DNA of 12,011 nucleotides from Anaerolineae bacterium (GTDB lineage: Bacteria > Chloroflexota > Anaerolineae > B4-G1): the NCBI GenBank assembly GCA_030620125.1, contig JAUXFI010000041.1, positions 1 to 12,011 of the forward strand, read 5' to 3'. Position 1 is the stretch's first letter. Each line of letters begins with the position of its first letter. The translations under genes were made by a program, and so were the position numbers. Shown here in pieces: positions 1 through 9,443 of this stretch. A model generated the notes under the pieces. The model ran no database searches, had not been told where the DNA came from, and worked only from the letters and a program-made list of their open reading frames with translations.

Positions 1-1583
1 CCGGAGGGAGTTGTAGACGTTTCCACCGGTGTGTAGACCAGCGTAGTCGCCTCCGTCACTGCGCCGGCAGGCATCTGGATGACCGTGGGGCTGCCCTGTG
101 TGTCGGTGTAGACCAAGGTGCCGCCAGTGATCGGGTCCACGGTCACACTCCACATCATTTCATCCGCGCCGATGTCGTAGCCCGTGCCAACCGGTCGTGG
201 TTCGCCGTCAATGTCCACGGTGACACCCGCGTCCACGCCTCCGTCAATGGCGGCCGAGGCACCGGTCAAGTGGTAGCCGTCGGGGGCGAAGGCTGGGTCG
301 CCGTTGCGGTCATTGGTGTGGACAACATTGCCGCTCCAGTCGGTGGTGTTTGCATGCCACAGGGTGGCATTGAGCGTAGCCGTATTGCTGGCCGTGACGC
401 TGATGCCTACGCTGTGGCTCACCAGGATGGTGTTGGTCAAGATTGCGGTGCTACCATCAGTGACGTAGACGCCGCTGCCGTCGCCACCAGTGTTGCGGGC
501 GATGGTGTTGTGCAACAAGCAAGGGGAGGAGCCCCGGATGTACAGCCCGCCACCGGAGTCATTGGCGGTGTTGCCACTGATGATGTTGTTGATGAGCGTG
601 GCGTCGCTATAGTAGTTCATGTACAGTCCGCCGCCGTCGCCAGTGGCAGTGTTGGCAGTGACAATGTTACTGCTGAGTGTGGCGGTGCTGGAATATAAGT
701 ATAACCCCCCGCCGAAGGCCCTGGCAGTGTTGGTGGTGACGGTGTTATCACTGAGTATTGCGGAGCTAGACCGCAAGTACAACCCGCCACCGTAGCCATA
801 GTCGGCGATGTTCGAGGTAACAGTATTGCCACTGAGCGTGGCAGCGCTGGAGTTCAGATACAGCCCACCACCATCCCAGGCGGCAGTGTTGGAGGTGACG
901 GTGTTGGCTCTGAGCATGGCGCCGCTTTGGTACAGATACACCCCACCGCCGTGGTCGGAGGTGTTGCCAAACACTCGGTTATTGCTGATGATGGCCGTGG
1001 CAGTGACGACGTATACCCCACCGCCGACATCATTCCAGGAGGACTCCCCGCCGCCCAACCCGTCCGCATCCCCGCCGGTGATGCGCAGCCCCTCGACTGT
1101 GGGGCTGATGTCTCCTATGATGCACAGCACCCGCCCCTGCCCCTGGGCATCCAGCGTGGTGGGGTTAGCCTCGGGGTCGGGCGTGGTCCAGTCAGTAGTG
1201 GTGTATCCGCCCTGGATGGTCACGGTCTCGCTGATGAAGACTACTTGGGTGATCACCGATGGACCTTCATATCCAGGAGGGGCCAGACGGCCCTGTACGC
1301 CGGTGTAGGTGTCGGTCGCCACTTTGATGACGTCGCCCTCGTTGGCGGCGTCCACCGCGTCCTGCACGGTAGCATAGTCGCACGTCGGTGGACCGTCCGG
1401 GCAGACGCGCAGTTCAGCGGCGGGGGCGCTGGGGGCCTCAATGGGGTCTTCCGCTACGCTGCGGGCAGGCTCAGCACGCGGCGCGGCTACAACCGGCGTG
1501 TTCCGGCCTCCCAGGACCAACACCAGGGCCAGGATCAAGCCCAGGCCCAGAGCGAATGGAATGAGCATACGTCTGATTTTCAT
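1..1583 (-). CDS. Secreted right-handed beta-helix repeat protein, C-terminus beyond window
   Basis: The reading frame is open from an ATG at 1583 to the left edge, giving 527 codons with no stop, so the gene is partial at its 3' end. Residues 1-35 form a secretion signal (MKIRR, then a Leu-rich core, then VVAAP). Residues 187 to about 370 hold seven repeats of 25-27 residues with the pattern GGGLYL-SS-A-LS-NTVT-NTA, typical of parallel beta-helix or Pmp-like surface proteins. Residues 445-474 (AIDGG ... DIDGEPRP ... DIGADE) match the choice-of-anchor Q region that often follows such helices. A beta-sandwich-like segment begins afterwards (GGTLVYTDTQG ... MPAGAV). The likely role is an extracellular or surface-attached adhesin or polysaccharide-binding protein; no catalytic residues are evident. 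An AAGGAG ribosome site lies 9 bases before the ATG. A GTG-ATG pair 20-21 codons upstream is in frame but would put a hydrophilic stretch before the signal peptide. Confidence 0.88.
   Translation of the reverse strand, partial: MKIRRMLIPFALGLGLILALVLVLGGRNTPVVAAPRAEPARSVAEDPIEAPSAPAAELRVCPDGPPTCDYATVQDAVDAANEGDVIKVATDTYTGVQGRLAPPGYEGPSVITQVVFISETVTIQGGYTTTDWTTPDPEANPTTLDAQGQGRVLCIIGDISPTVEGLRITGGDADGLGGGESSWNDVGGGVYVVTATAIISNNRVFGNTSDHGGGVYLYQSGAMLRANTVTSNTAAWDGGGLYLNSSAATLSGNTVTSNIADYGYGGGLYLRSSSAILSDNTVTTNTARAFGGGLYLYSSTATLSSNIVTANTATGDGGGLYMNYYSDATLINNIISGNTANDSGGGLYIRGSSPCLLHNTIARNTGGDGSGVYVTDGSTAILTNTILVSHSVGISVTASNTATLNATLWHANTTDWSGNVVHTNDRNGDPAFAPDGYHLTGASAAIDGGVDAGVTVDIDGEPRPVGTGYDIGADEMMWSVTVDPITGGTLVYTDTQGSPTVIQMPAGAVTEATTLVYTPVETSTTPS
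477..1025 (-). repeat. In-gene tandem repeats of about 78 bp (beta-helix coils)
   Basis: Seven consecutive units of 75-81 bp, each starting with codons for Gly-Gly-Gly-(Val/Leu)-Tyr, encode the coils of the beta-helix. The units are similar at the DNA level (recurring GGCGGGCTGTAC and AACACYGYCACC-like blocks), which points to expansion by duplication and makes copy number likely to vary between strains. Confidence 0.8.
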
Positions 1584-1603
1584 CGTTTGTTTCTCCTTGT
1601 GTG

Positions 1604-1652
1604 CAAATAGCGAATGGCGAGTGGCGAATCCCGAATCACGCATCACTGCAAA
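1604..1652. repeat. Heptamer-repeat cluster A
   Basis: Degenerate 7-bp units on the plus strand read CGAATGG, CGAGTGG, CGAATCC, CGAATCA, CGCATCA. The cluster lies in the leader of the beta-helix gene. It sits between a perfect anti-16S complement (AGGAGGTGAT on the minus strand, 1656-1665) and the gene's actual AAGGAG ribosome site, as if it had been inserted into an older translation start region. Confidence 0.65.
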
Positions 1653-1703
1653 TGCATCACCTCCTATCCAGGCTGCGGTGTCATTGCCCGAAAGGATGTT
1701 TCC

Positions 1704-1724
1704 TCAGAAAGCGCCCAGTTGTCA
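1704..1724 (-). other. In-frame UGA at a conserved Cys position with 5-codon tail (QLGAF) and second UGA
   Basis: The codons are CAG-TGA-CAA-CTG-GGC-GCT-TTC-TGA. The first half of the same protein has CAT-TGT-CAG-TTG-GGC at the matching place, so the UGA differs from a Cys codon by one base. Read-through would give a 126-residue protein ending in (C/U)QLGAF. I see no convincing bacterial SECIS: only a weak 5-bp stem (GAGGA/TCCTT, loop AACA) lies within 35 bases downstream. Confidence 0.6.
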
Positions 1725-2084
1725 CTGCCCAATGCGAACGTCCAACTTTTCGGCAGCGTTCGCCACGCGCAGTTTGGGAACCTCAAACCGGGCAGCGATG
1801 GCCCAGGCGACAGCACACGGCAGTCTTCCCAGGATCAGCCCTTCGCGGATGGCCTGCTCCAACCCTGGCGACACCTCTCCAGCCGATTTCACGACGAGCT
1901 TGTGCTCGGCGTGGCCGAGCAGGCCCAACTGACAATGCGAGAGCCGCACTCCCAATGTGTCGGCGGTCTGCCCCACTGCCAGCGGTGTTATGCCCAACTC
2001 CTCGGCAATGCAAAAGGACGCCGCACAATGCAGCGTCCCCTCCAGCGCCCGCTCCCGAATGGCTGCTGTGATCCTTTCGTCCAT
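1722..2084 (-). CDS. Small two-fold-repeat HTH-like CQLG protein, ends at in-frame UGA
   Basis: This 120-residue protein consists of two similar halves. Half 1 (about residues 16-57) reads GTLHC...IAEELGITPLAVGQTADTLGVRLSHCQLG. Half 2 (about 86-120) reads GRLPC...IAARFEVPKLRVANAAEKLDVRIGQ and then stops at UGA. After the UGA the same frame continues Q-L-G-A-F and meets a second UGA at 1704-1706. The stop therefore aligns exactly with Cys51 of half 1. Cys20 to Cys51 and Cys90 to the UGA are both 31 residues apart. The helix-turn pattern with Ala-Asp/Glu-x-Leu resembles a DNA-binding fold, and the paired Cys might bind metal, but I cannot name the family and assign no function. No Shine-Dalgarno precedes the ATG because a heptamer repeat fills the gap to the upstream peptidase gene. 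Confidence 0.72.
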   Translation of the reverse strand: MDERITAAIRERALEGTLHCAASFCIAEELGITPLAVGQTADTLGVRLSHCQLGLLGHAEHKLVVKSAGEVSPGLEQAIREGLILGRLPCAVAWAIAARFEVPKLRVANAAEKLDVRIGQ

Positions 2085-2116: not shown

Positions 2117-3307
2117 TCAAATACACCATAACTCTGTCTGCGGCTCACTCAGGTACTCGGCTCCCTGGGGAGTGACCAGCACATCTTCCTCACAGCCGAT
2201 GTAGCCGTACCCCGGCACCTGCACCCCCAACTCGATAGCGAAGACATTGCCGGCTTCAATTACGCCATCTACCGTAGCCCCGTACCGCTCCCAGCGAGGT
2301 CCCAGGATCGTCGCGCCGTCGTGGGCGGAGCGGCCGATGTGATGACCAAAGGCATGCATGTACTCCGGATAACCGGCCTGAGTCAATGTTTTGCGTGCCG
2401 CCTGGTCCACTTCCCAGCCACGCGCGCCGGGACGCAGTGTCGCTCTTCCGGCCTCCAATGCCTTTCTCGCGGCTTCCCATCCAGCCAACACCTCCGCCGA
2501 CGGTCCCGTCTTCCCCTCGCCGAGCAAGTACCACGTCCGTTGCAGGTCCGAAACGAAGCCATCCTTCCGCACGCCAAAGTCCGCTTGCAGCAAGCACCCA
2601 CGCTGGACGGTGAAATCGCCTGGCATGGCGTGACCGAAGGGCGAATCGGGACCCGCCGTGACCACCGGGCAGTAGTCTGCCTCCCATGCCGGCCCCAATC
2701 CTTCCTGAGACGCAGCCTCCTTGAAAAAGTGGGCTATCTCCCGTTCCGTCAGACCTGGGCGGATCAACTGGCCGGTGCGACGAAAGATGGCTTCTGCGGC
2801 CTGGATGGCAGCCTCGATGCGCGCCACCTCCGCCGGAGACTTGCGCCCGCGCAGCGCACCAATCACCTCTTCGGCGGAGACGAGGCGACTGGCGTACTCA
2901 GTCCCGCCGACGACCTTTGCCAGCACGCGGAACATCCCGTGCGTGAGGCCGTCGGCTGCCGGGTCGCTCTCCGAAAAGTTGAGCGCCACCTTGCGCGGAC
3001 CCAGCCGGGCCAGGTGCTCCAGCAACGGCCCGCGGACAGACCGGTCGTAGCCGACGACCGTCGTGTAGCCGCCTACACGCTCGATGTTTTCCACGTCGTA
3101 GCGGCCCACAATGGCAATGCGCTCTCCAGTGCGGCTGATCATCAACGCCGACTGCCAGGTCAGGTCAAAGCCCAACAGCAGGTCGAGGCAGGGATCCCCT
3201 GCCTGCGTCGTCTCACGCACGAAGGTGAGCCAGAGATCAATCTCCTTCTCCTCCAGCACCTCCACAGCCTGGTTCAATTTCTCACGAATGATTTCAAAGT
3301 CCGGCAT
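2117..3307 (-). CDS. M24-family metallopeptidase (Xaa-Pro aminopeptidase/dipeptidase type)
   Basis: This 396-residue cytosolic protein has the two-domain build of creatinase-fold peptidases. The N-terminal domain (about 1-150) precedes a pita-bread catalytic domain (about 160-385). All five expected metal ligands are visible: Asp243 (LLQADFG), Asp254 (FVSDLQRTW), His322 (FGHHIG), Glu359 (AIELGVQ) and Glu374 (CEEDVLVT). His329 in RSAHDG fits the catalytic His. Such enzymes remove N-terminal residues before proline, or split X-Pro dipeptides, using two Mn or Co ions; the exact substrate cannot be read from sequence. I chose the ATG at 3307, preceded by GAGG nine bases upstream. A TTG at 3340 would add 11 residues and overlap the parB end. 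It follows parB by 16 bp and is probably cotranscribed. Confidence 0.9.
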   Translation of the reverse strand: MPDFEIIREKLNQAVEVLEEKEIDLWLTFVRETTQAGDPCLDLLLGFDLTWQSALMISRTGERIAIVGRYDVENIERVGGYTTVVGYDRSVRGPLLEHLARLGPRKVALNFSESDPAADGLTHGMFRVLAKVVGGTEYASRLVSAEEVIGALRGRKSPAEVARIEAAIQAAEAIFRRTGQLIRPGLTEREIAHFFKEAASQEGLGPAWEADYCPVVTAGPDSPFGHAMPGDFTVQRGCLLQADFGVRKDGFVSDLQRTWYLLGEGKTGPSAEVLAGWEAARKALEAGRATLRPGARGWEVDQAARKTLTQAGYPEYMHAFGHHIGRSAHDGATILGPRWERYGATVDGVIEAGNVFAIELGVQVPGYGYIGCEEDVLVTPQGAEYLSEPQTELWCI

Positions 3308-3323
3308 CTCGTTTGTCCTCGTG

Positions 3324-4178
3324 TTACTCTCTTCCGACAATGTGCTCGTATAAAGCGTCTAACTCTTCCTCAGAATAAAAGTAAATCACGACGCGGCCCT
3401 TTCCCCCGCTGCGCGTCAGGCTGACTTTGGTGCCCAGCGCCTCGCGGAAGCTGGTCTCCAGCGCCCGCGTCTCCGGCGAGGATGTGCTTGCAGGCCGCTG
3501 CTCCTCTCGCAGGCCGAGCAAGCGCCGCACCAACTTTTCCGTCTGCCGCACGTTCAGTTCCTGCTTCAGGACCGTCTTGAGCGCGCCCCCCTGCGCTTCA
3601 GCCTGCTCCAGGCCCAGGAGGGCACGGGCGTGACCCTCGCTGATCTTGCCTGCCAGCAGTGCCGCTTGCACGGGCCGGGCTGCTTTCAGCAGGCGCACCG
3701 TGTTGGAGACCGCCACCCGGCTTTTTCCCACCCGCCGCGCTACCTGCTCCTGCGTCAGTCCGAACTCTTCGACCAACTGGCGGTAGGCCATGGCCTCCTC
3801 CAGTGAATTCAGGTCGGACCGCTGGAGGTTTTCCACCAGCGCCAGCTCCAACATCTCGCTGGGGGCCACATCCTTCACGACGACGGGGGCTGTTGATAAC
3901 CCGGCCAGTCGCGCCGCGCGCCAGCGACGCTCGCCGGCAATCAGTTGATATCCGTCGGCCACTGCGATGACGATGAGCGGCTGGATGATACCGTGTTCCT
4001 CGATGGAGGCTGCCAGTTCTACCAGGTCTTGATCGCGGATCGACACACGGGGTTGATGAGGGTTGGGCACGATAGAAGATAGAGAGACCTCGGCCACACC
4101 CTGCGCCGCCGCCGGTTCCTCGGCGAGGGGGATCAGCGCGCCTAACCCCCTGCCCAGCCCGCTCTTGCGTGATGACAT
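3324..4178 (-). CDS. parB: Chromosome-partitioning protein ParB
   Basis: ParB is a CTP-dependent DNA clamp that loads at parS and spreads over the origin region to guide segregation with ParA. The 284 residues show the hallmark parts. The N-terminal GLGRGLGALIP (7-17) is the ParA-stimulating segment. The ParB/Srx CTP-binding domain contains NPHQPR (39-44) and the arginine-rich GERRWRAAR box (82-90). ENLQRSDLNSLEEA (116-129) and a helix-turn-helix (LTQEQVARRVGKSRVAVSNT, 141-160) for parS reading follow. A C-terminal dimerisation domain (about 230-284) ends in YSEEELDALYEHI. The length is normal for chromosomal ParB. The ATG is preceded by GAGGTGA. It lies 57 bp downstream of parA with heptamer cluster C between them. 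No consensus parS is visible in the window. Confidence 0.96.
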   Translation of the reverse strand: MSSRKSGLGRGLGALIPLAEEPAAAQGVAEVSLSSIVPNPHQPRVSIRDQDLVELAASIEEHGIIQPLIVIAVADGYQLIAGERRWRAARLAGLSTAPVVVKDVAPSEMLELALVENLQRSDLNSLEEAMAYRQLVEEFGLTQEQVARRVGKSRVAVSNTVRLLKAARPVQAALLAGKISEGHARALLGLEQAEAQGGALKTVLKQELNVRQTEKLVRRLLGLREEQRPASTSSPETRALETSFREALGTKVSLTRSGGKGRVVIYFYSEEELDALYEHIVGRE

Positions 4179-8718: not shown

Positions 8719-8955
8719 TTACTTATCCTCCTCTAGATTGGGAACAGGGTCATATCCCCCTGGGTTGAAGGGGTTACAGCGCACCACCCGCTTCACAGCC
8801 AGCCAGATACCGCGCCAGGCCCCATAGCGAGCAATGGCTTCGTAGCCATACTGAGAACAGGAAGGCACAAACCGGCAGGTGGGAGGGAGCACACGCGAGT
8901 AAGTCATCTGATAGAGGCGAATCATACCTAGAAGGACAGTACTCATTATTCCCAT
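8719..8955 (-). CDS. yidD: Membrane protein insertion efficiency factor YidD
   Basis: This small protein (78 residues) has the full YidD pattern: an N-terminal amphipathic segment (MIRLYQMTYSRVLPP), then TCRFVPSCSQYGYEAI (26-41) with two Cys, GAWRGIWLAVKRVVRCNPF with the third Cys (Cys60), and GGYDPVP (66-72). YidD helps YidC-dependent insertion at the inner leaflet. The start is uncertain: ATG at 8955 and ATG at 8946 are both in frame, each with a poor ribosome site, and the region upstream belongs to rnpA. It lies 17 bp after rnpA and its TAA touches the TTG start of the lipoprotein, suggesting translational coupling. Confidence 0.92.
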   Translation of the reverse strand: MGIMSTVLLGMIRLYQMTYSRVLPPTCRFVPSCSQYGYEAIARYGAWRGIWLAVKRVVRCNPFNPGGYDPVPNLEEDK

Positions 8956-8972
8956 TCTTGTGCATAAACCCA

Positions 8973-9308
8973 CTACACGTTCACTCCGGCCCGTCTCAAC
9001 AACGAGGCCAACGCTTGCTCGACCTGCGGCTCCTTTACCTTGAGAATAGCAGCACGCGCGATCAACATCACATCCCACCCAACCCCGAACTGGGGGTAGA
9101 GGCAACGTGCCGCCTCACGCATGAGCCGTTTGGCGCGGTTACGAGCCACTGCATTCCCTACTCTCCGGCTGGCCGTAACACCCACGCGGCTAAAATCGAG
9201 CCCATTGGGCCGCGCGACCAACACCAACAGAGGGTGCGCCCAAGATCGCCCCTCATCGTACACCAGCCGCACATCAGTCGTTCTTCGTAGTCGAATCCGC
9301 CGCTCCAC
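8973..9308 (-). CDS. rnpA: Ribonuclease P protein component
   Basis: RnpA is the basic protein subunit that binds the RNase P RNA for tRNA 5'-end maturation. From the GTG at 9308 the product has 111 residues, the usual length, and begins VERRIRLRRTTDVRLVY, like the typical K-x-x-R-L-R-x-x-x-D-F start. The signature GNAVARNRAKRLMREAAR lies at about 51-68, and DVMLIARAA (79-87) is the conserved central strand. The frame is open back to an ATG at 9425, but the extra 39 residues resemble nothing in the family. That DNA also forms two strong hairpins, with the ATG in the loop of one, so I treat it as noncoding leader. The ribosome site for the GTG is weak. Confidence 0.93.
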   Translation of the reverse strand: MERRIRLRRTTDVRLVYDEGRSWAHPLLVLVARPNGLDFSRVGVTASRRVGNAVARNRAKRLMREAARCLYPQFGVGWDVMLIARAAILKVKEPQVEQALASLLRRAGVNV

Positions 9309-9333
9309 CGCAAGGCTCGTCTCTGGCGCAAAA

Positions 9334-9361
9334 GTGGGGCAGGCCAGGAAGCCCGTCCCAC
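9334..9361 (-). other. Hairpin in rnpA leader (11-bp stem, 6-base loop)
   Basis: On the minus strand GTGGGACGGGC and GCCTGCCCCAC pair around TTCCTG, with one mismatch and one G-U pair. The hairpin sits 25 bases upstream of the chosen rnpA start. It has no following T-tract, so it is not a typical intrinsic terminator. It may be a dispersed repeat or an mRNA processing/stability element. Confidence 0.5.
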
Positions 9362-9406
9362 AAACTATCTCGCACCGACAACTAGACTCGGCAGATCCTC
9401 GGTTTC

Positions 9407-9443
9407 GGCCTGGATCTGGCAGCATACCGAAGGGATCCAGGCC
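9407..9443 (-). other. Hairpin between rpmH and rnpA (perfect 10-bp stem)
   Basis: GGCCTGGATC and GATCCAGGCC are perfect inverted arms with a 17-base loop. The ATG at 9423-9425, which would start a longer rnpA, lies in the loop. No T-run follows. A role in processing or partial attenuation between L34 and RnpA is possible but is inference. Confidence 0.55.

Follow-up and report, generated by a model that had tools for sequence, protein, structure and literature searches.

We identified, in a small gene of the window (the whole analysed stretch of 12,011 nucleotides), an in-frame TGA that stands exactly where relatives carry a conserved Cys, and we lean, with somewhat better than even confidence, towards a real and recent nonsense change in this gene. 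The open reading frame (1722..2084, minus strand) starts with ATG at 2084, counts 120 codons and is closed by TGA at 1724–1722 (codon 121), a codon one base away from a Cys codon. The stretch behind it (1704..1721, minus strand) holds the intact codons of a conserved tail: five of them (QLGAF) lead to a second in-frame TGA at 1706–1704, such that the surroundings of the early stop read RIGQ-UGA-QLGAF, and the frame is otherwise clean. An earlier note on this DNA, made from the letters alone, had placed the UGA on the conserved Cys of a second CQLG motif, with QLGAF and another in-frame TGA to follow. The minus-strand frame confirms the latter, and the relatives described below confirm the former.

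Conservation of the cysteine among relatives

A protein search of approximately 5.8 billion sequences yielded 480 relatives, of which the best 120, with the window itself among them, were used; at the level of genome loci, we used the best 80 of 510 confirmed ones. Cys occupied the TGA column in all of the 119 other sequences (best 120 of 480) and the corresponding place in all 80 loci (best 80 of 510), with no stop seen. The codon itself was printed for 77 of these loci and was TGC or TGT; for L028, L068 and L073 the Cys comes from the translation, with L068 cut by a contig end just past it. The DNA patterns of the locus scan lay elsewhere in the gene and would therefore not have hidden a stop at codon 121. 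In addition to that, a scan of 396 genomes from the same class as G001 gave 80 matches in 79 genomes, none with an internal stop and 78 of them reaching residue 121, and viral contigs gave seven pattern matches and no relative.

The earlier note had raised the possibility of homologues with a natural end ahead of the second CQLG; none of the 119 listed is of this kind, and the motif was slightly changed (to CQIG, CQLS, CQLD or CELG) in 17 of them. P0004, at 89% identity the nearest of the listed homologues, has Cys at the place and matches the window exactly over residues 75–120. Genome G289 reads TGC, followed by CAA ATC GGC GCG TTC TGA. As far as seen in these collections, the TGA appears to be private to the window sequence.

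A twin-repeat family with four cysteines

The gene belongs to a family that is widespread in Chloroflexota and Desulfobacterota genomes and carries four near-invariant Cys and CQLG motifs (window and L001–L080). Its scanned members had no Pfam or NCBIfam match over cut-off; the window's own protein was likewise without a match in Pfam (E ≤ 1) and in NCBIfam (E ≤ 0.1). The internal duplication proposed earlier is real: half 1 aligns locally with half 2 at a score of 68, the highest of 500 shuffles being 45. Repeat 1 (1905..2060, minus strand; approximately residues 9–60) runs helix-strand-helix-helix-strand and contains Cys20, Cys51 and CQLG; repeat 2 (1722..1868, minus strand; approximately residues 73–121) is built of the same elements and contains Cys90, with the TGA replacing the Cys of the second CQLG. 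The spacing had also been described correctly: 31 residues separate C20 from C51, and 31 separate C90 from TGA121. Cys20, Cys51 and Cys90 are all present in the window and invariant in 120 of 120 sequences (best 120 of 480).

Compared with the twin-repeat CQLG family, the window keeps both tandem repeats, their spacing and three of the four Cys, and shares the neighbours ParB and M24 with some relatives, whereas it is without the fourth Cys, whose place is taken by the TGA, and without the five residues after it. The C-terminal Cys and QLGAF-like end typical of the family are thus missing from its protein, QLGAF being encoded behind the stop only.

A structural model of the 120-residue protein had a mean pLDDT of 84.0 and a pTM of 0.56, with block means of 88–96 over residues 71–120. 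Its elements follow one another in the same order as those modelled for P0005, a relative of 126 residues (mean pLDDT 77.7), whose tail (residues 121–126) had a pLDDT below 50. The stop is accordingly placed by the two models directly after the last strand, where it is predicted to take away only a flexible tail. Solved structures searched by sequence gave a best E of 0.38, and Foldseek gave no match at E ≤ 0.001. A NuoE-like N-terminal helical domain was considered and set aside, with VIA-align rows reaching only approximately residues 1–50; NuoE was also without profile support (six usable sequences from 15 loci tried). In four of six fetched stretches (the remaining two being L128 and L131), the family protein formed the end of a longer open frame, in which no domain was recognised by eye.

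Comparison of the window with G289 gave dN 0.22 and dS 1.30 over 124 codons, corresponding to average constraint. We defined 40 constraint columns, conserved in at least 95% of the other 118 sequences (best 120 of 480). The window departs at three of them, the lost tail apart, and P0004 at four, with 107 of the 120 sequences departing at none or one; there has perhaps been mild relaxation in the lineage of the window, judging by these alignments. P0004 is off-family at several near-invariant places, e.g. V37E and G54C, which may point to errors or a loosened constraint in P0004 too.

Directly upstream of the family gene, on the same strand, lies a gene for an M24 peptidase (2117..3340, minus strand), and parB is found at 3324..4178 (minus strand). 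M24 also neighbours the family gene in genome G289, where it is preceded by what by eye is an apparent ParB end, and in locus L011; L003 has ParB immediately next to the family gene. Neighbouring genes were read out for 40 of the 80 loci, and ten neighbour proteins were scanned, other names being given by eye. Elsewhere in the window, a parallel beta-helix protein with a choice-of-anchor Q type domain (3–1646, minus strand) runs off the window start. Two mechanical ORFs at 8719–9425 (minus strand), which we take to be YidD and RnpA, overlap by 133 bases, probably on account of a start called too early.

A probable recent nonsense change or a possible sequence error

In the reading that we favour, one base substitution would have turned a Cys codon, TGC or TGT, into TGA on the branch of the window only, the base being presumed real and the change recent. 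UGA, acting as a plain stop, would then end a 120-residue protein in which the last six residues (CQLGAF in relatives) are missing. The shortened protein would be expected to fold still, with two helix-turn-helix-like domains minus the fourth conserved Cys, and may either work less well or tolerate the loss. Relatives that keep the Cys, a frame that is intact behind the stop and the TGC of the M24-linked gene in G289 all argue for such a change, whereas the strong conservation of the tail argues against it, as its loss should cost something. Given this conservation, some loss of function may have followed, e.g. at a putative metal site or contact using the four Cys, although the effect would probably be mild. 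The case is like other recent C-terminal nonsense changes, with a one-base stop near the end and the frame and following codons intact, and we saw no difference from them.

The coincidence of the stop with a Cys can be set against the number of places where a stop could arise. There are 38 codons in the gene that lie one base from a stop (37 sense codons and the changed one), four of them conserved Cys. Within codons 120–126, the part of the gene that should best tolerate a stop, only 120, 121 and 122 are a single base away from one. By number of sites alone, roughly one in three tolerated late stops would hit the Cys.

The main rival is an error of sequence or assembly, in which case the true codon would be Cys and the protein a normal 126-residue family member. 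We regard this as possible, although tentatively so. One wrong base would explain everything, with the codons behind it intact, and a TGA was found in none of the listed relatives. A step from TGC to TGA in the gene amounts to C to A, and such changes can arise from oxidised guanine. Against an error, the remaining frame is clean. The earlier note had offered both sequencing error and a recent loss of the six C-terminal residues, and the relatives' Cys together with the intact codons support the two jointly.

A leaky stop is an improbable third account. Read-through of UGA-C at a low rate, e.g. as Trp, would produce a little full-length protein; UGA is a weak stop when C comes next, and the codons are intact up to the second TGA. 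Nevertheless, the same look is expected from any recent nonsense change, and no examined relative (80 loci and 80 genome matches) keeps such a stop.

Selenocysteine decoding in related genomes

The earlier note had also put forward UGA121 as a selenocysteine candidate. In this account, UGA121 would be read as Sec instead of the conserved Cys, by means of SelB and a SECIS in the codons and leader behind it; we consider this very unlikely. It draws on the UGA falling exactly on a conserved Cys with the tail intact. A first filter, described in one study, looks for a TGA paired with Cys in most homologues, followed by a search for SECIS elements (PMC1088965), and UGA121 would pass its Cys/TGA pairing step. 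The related clade is also equipped for Sec, and an absence of the machinery, named in the earlier note as a refutation, does not apply to these relatives. SelB was found over cut-off in 18 of 20 related genomes, as well as in G289, and tRNA-Sec in 17 of the 20, with 16 matches at 66.9 bits or more and the 17th, of 47.3 bits, at the threshold of 47. Among 17 related genomes, selD was over cut-off in 15, each with one in-frame TGA (L111–L125), and formate dehydrogenase in 13. The main FdhA matches over cut-off numbered 18, of which 16 had one in-frame TGA and two had none. As to tRNA near the gene, there was no tRNA in the window, and 35 of the 80 loci, when scanned, contained three tRNA genes, none of them for tRNA-Sec.

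One formate dehydrogenase (L107, 1812–1859, minus strand) carries Cys (TGC) where its relatives have Sec. A SECIS-like stretch remains recognisable there at 31.7 bits, with the GGUCU loop turned into GGCCT, and the locus looks like a case of a Sec-to-Cys change.

Search for a SECIS element behind UGA121

The stretch behind the UGA (1652..1721, minus strand) was scanned for a bacterial SECIS, and none in it fits the published model. As set out in its source (PMC13188914), this model has a loop of 3–9 nt with a G within the first two positions, located 16–37 nt from the UGA, on a stem of 4–16 bp with an energy of ≤ −7.5 kcal/mol; we applied our own coding of the published criteria. The window yielded no candidate with at least four contiguous pairs, the best having three pairs and −5.3 kcal/mol, whereas all 15 real FdhA and SelD sites from related genomes passed. 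The earlier note likewise saw no clear SECIS downstream. At the same time, the model is permissive, letting through 31 of the 77 ordinary TGA ends as well as 22 of 79 relatives that encode Cys, so that a pass would mean little and a failure is informative. The failure at UGA121 counts strongly but not finally against Sec, since a subset of accepted SECIS elements lies outside the model, according to that source (PMC13188914).

A near miss is nonetheless present at a SECIS-like distance: a hairpin with a 6-pair stem and a 10-base loop that starts with G, the loop lying 19 bases behind the UGA and being one base over the loop limit of the model. It is weak, with −1.5 kcal/mol alone and −6.2 kcal/mol with nearby pairs, against −9.2 to −15.4 kcal/mol for the 15 real stem-loops, and it fails even when loops of up to 14 bases are allowed. 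In a looser scan (loops ≤ 14 bases), the same hairpin with outer pairs reached −9.3 kcal/mol, a value that 37 of the 77 ordinary ends equalled or beat. Three FdhA sites scored −18.6 to −23.3 kcal/mol in that scan, a level also reached by eight of the 77 ordinary ends. Plain folding of the stretch behind UGA121 gave −7.6 kcal/mol (z 0.12; z −0.26 for 60 bases). Fold energy alone was discarded as a SECIS test, the real sites having z between −2.51 and 0.53 and 56 of the 77 ordinary ends lying at or below 0.53.

In each of the eight FdhA Sec sites read, a GGUCU loop begins 18 bases past the UGA, and the seven SelD sites read share a hairpin of the form GGCGCAGGTnCTGCGCC after the TGA, unlike that of FdhA; the window has neither. 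A covariance model trained on the eight FdhA sites, with three FdhA sites held out, scored 2.9 bits at UGA121 versus 72–75 bits for the three held-out sites. As a general SECIS test it was rejected, being FdhA-specific and missing all seven SelD sites. Rfam had no match in the window.

The positive controls were taken from eight of 12 fetched FdhA loci and seven of 15 fetched selD loci, chosen for having the gene on the plus strand of the fetched locus. Other printed TGA sites were judged by eye to belong to neither FdhA nor SelD and were excluded; two of them, in FdhA loci, were also positive in a simple GGTC check. For the SelD controls, the best-scoring loop was not always the shared hairpin (L112 and L113). 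The 77 ordinary ends are those of mechanical ORFs of at least 200 aa in loci L001–L024, which are putative genes.

UGA-containing homologues in other organisms are named as a filter in the SECIS review (PMC13188914), and there was none among the 119 listed homologues, the 80 loci and the 78 genome matches reaching the place. UxxC, CxxU or TxxU motifs are reported for 15 of 17 families in which Cys gave way to Sec (PMC1794560), and no CxxU, UxxC or TxxU surrounds UGA121. The site resembles the FdhA and SelD selenoproteins in having an in-frame UGA where relatives have Cys, in a group of related genomes that own the decoding machinery. It differs from them in having no model SECIS, no UGA homologue found and no thiol redox motif, and the selenocysteine candidate is unsupported on these three counts. 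A young Cys-to-Sec change in this helix-turn-helix-like family, served by an unusual SECIS that is perhaps the 6-pair, 10-base-loop hairpin, deserves even less credence. Wholesale recoding of UGA is ruled out, as had been argued from its use as a normal stop elsewhere, by several other window ORFs that end in TGA: those taken as M24 and PfkB, and those that we presume to be rpmH and DUF554-like.

Significance for the family

If UGA121 were Sec after all, a selenoprotein family would have been caught at its start, in a clade already decoding Sec, and showing this would call for a widening of the published SECIS model. The UGA-Sec genes of the relatives serve as a local yardstick, which UGA121 fails. 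With a recent nonsense change as the favoured reading, the gene provides a worked example of how a stop landing on a conserved Cys can mimic selenocysteine. Of greater value than the stop may be the conserved four-Cys family itself, for which neither Pfam nor NCBIfam has a model.
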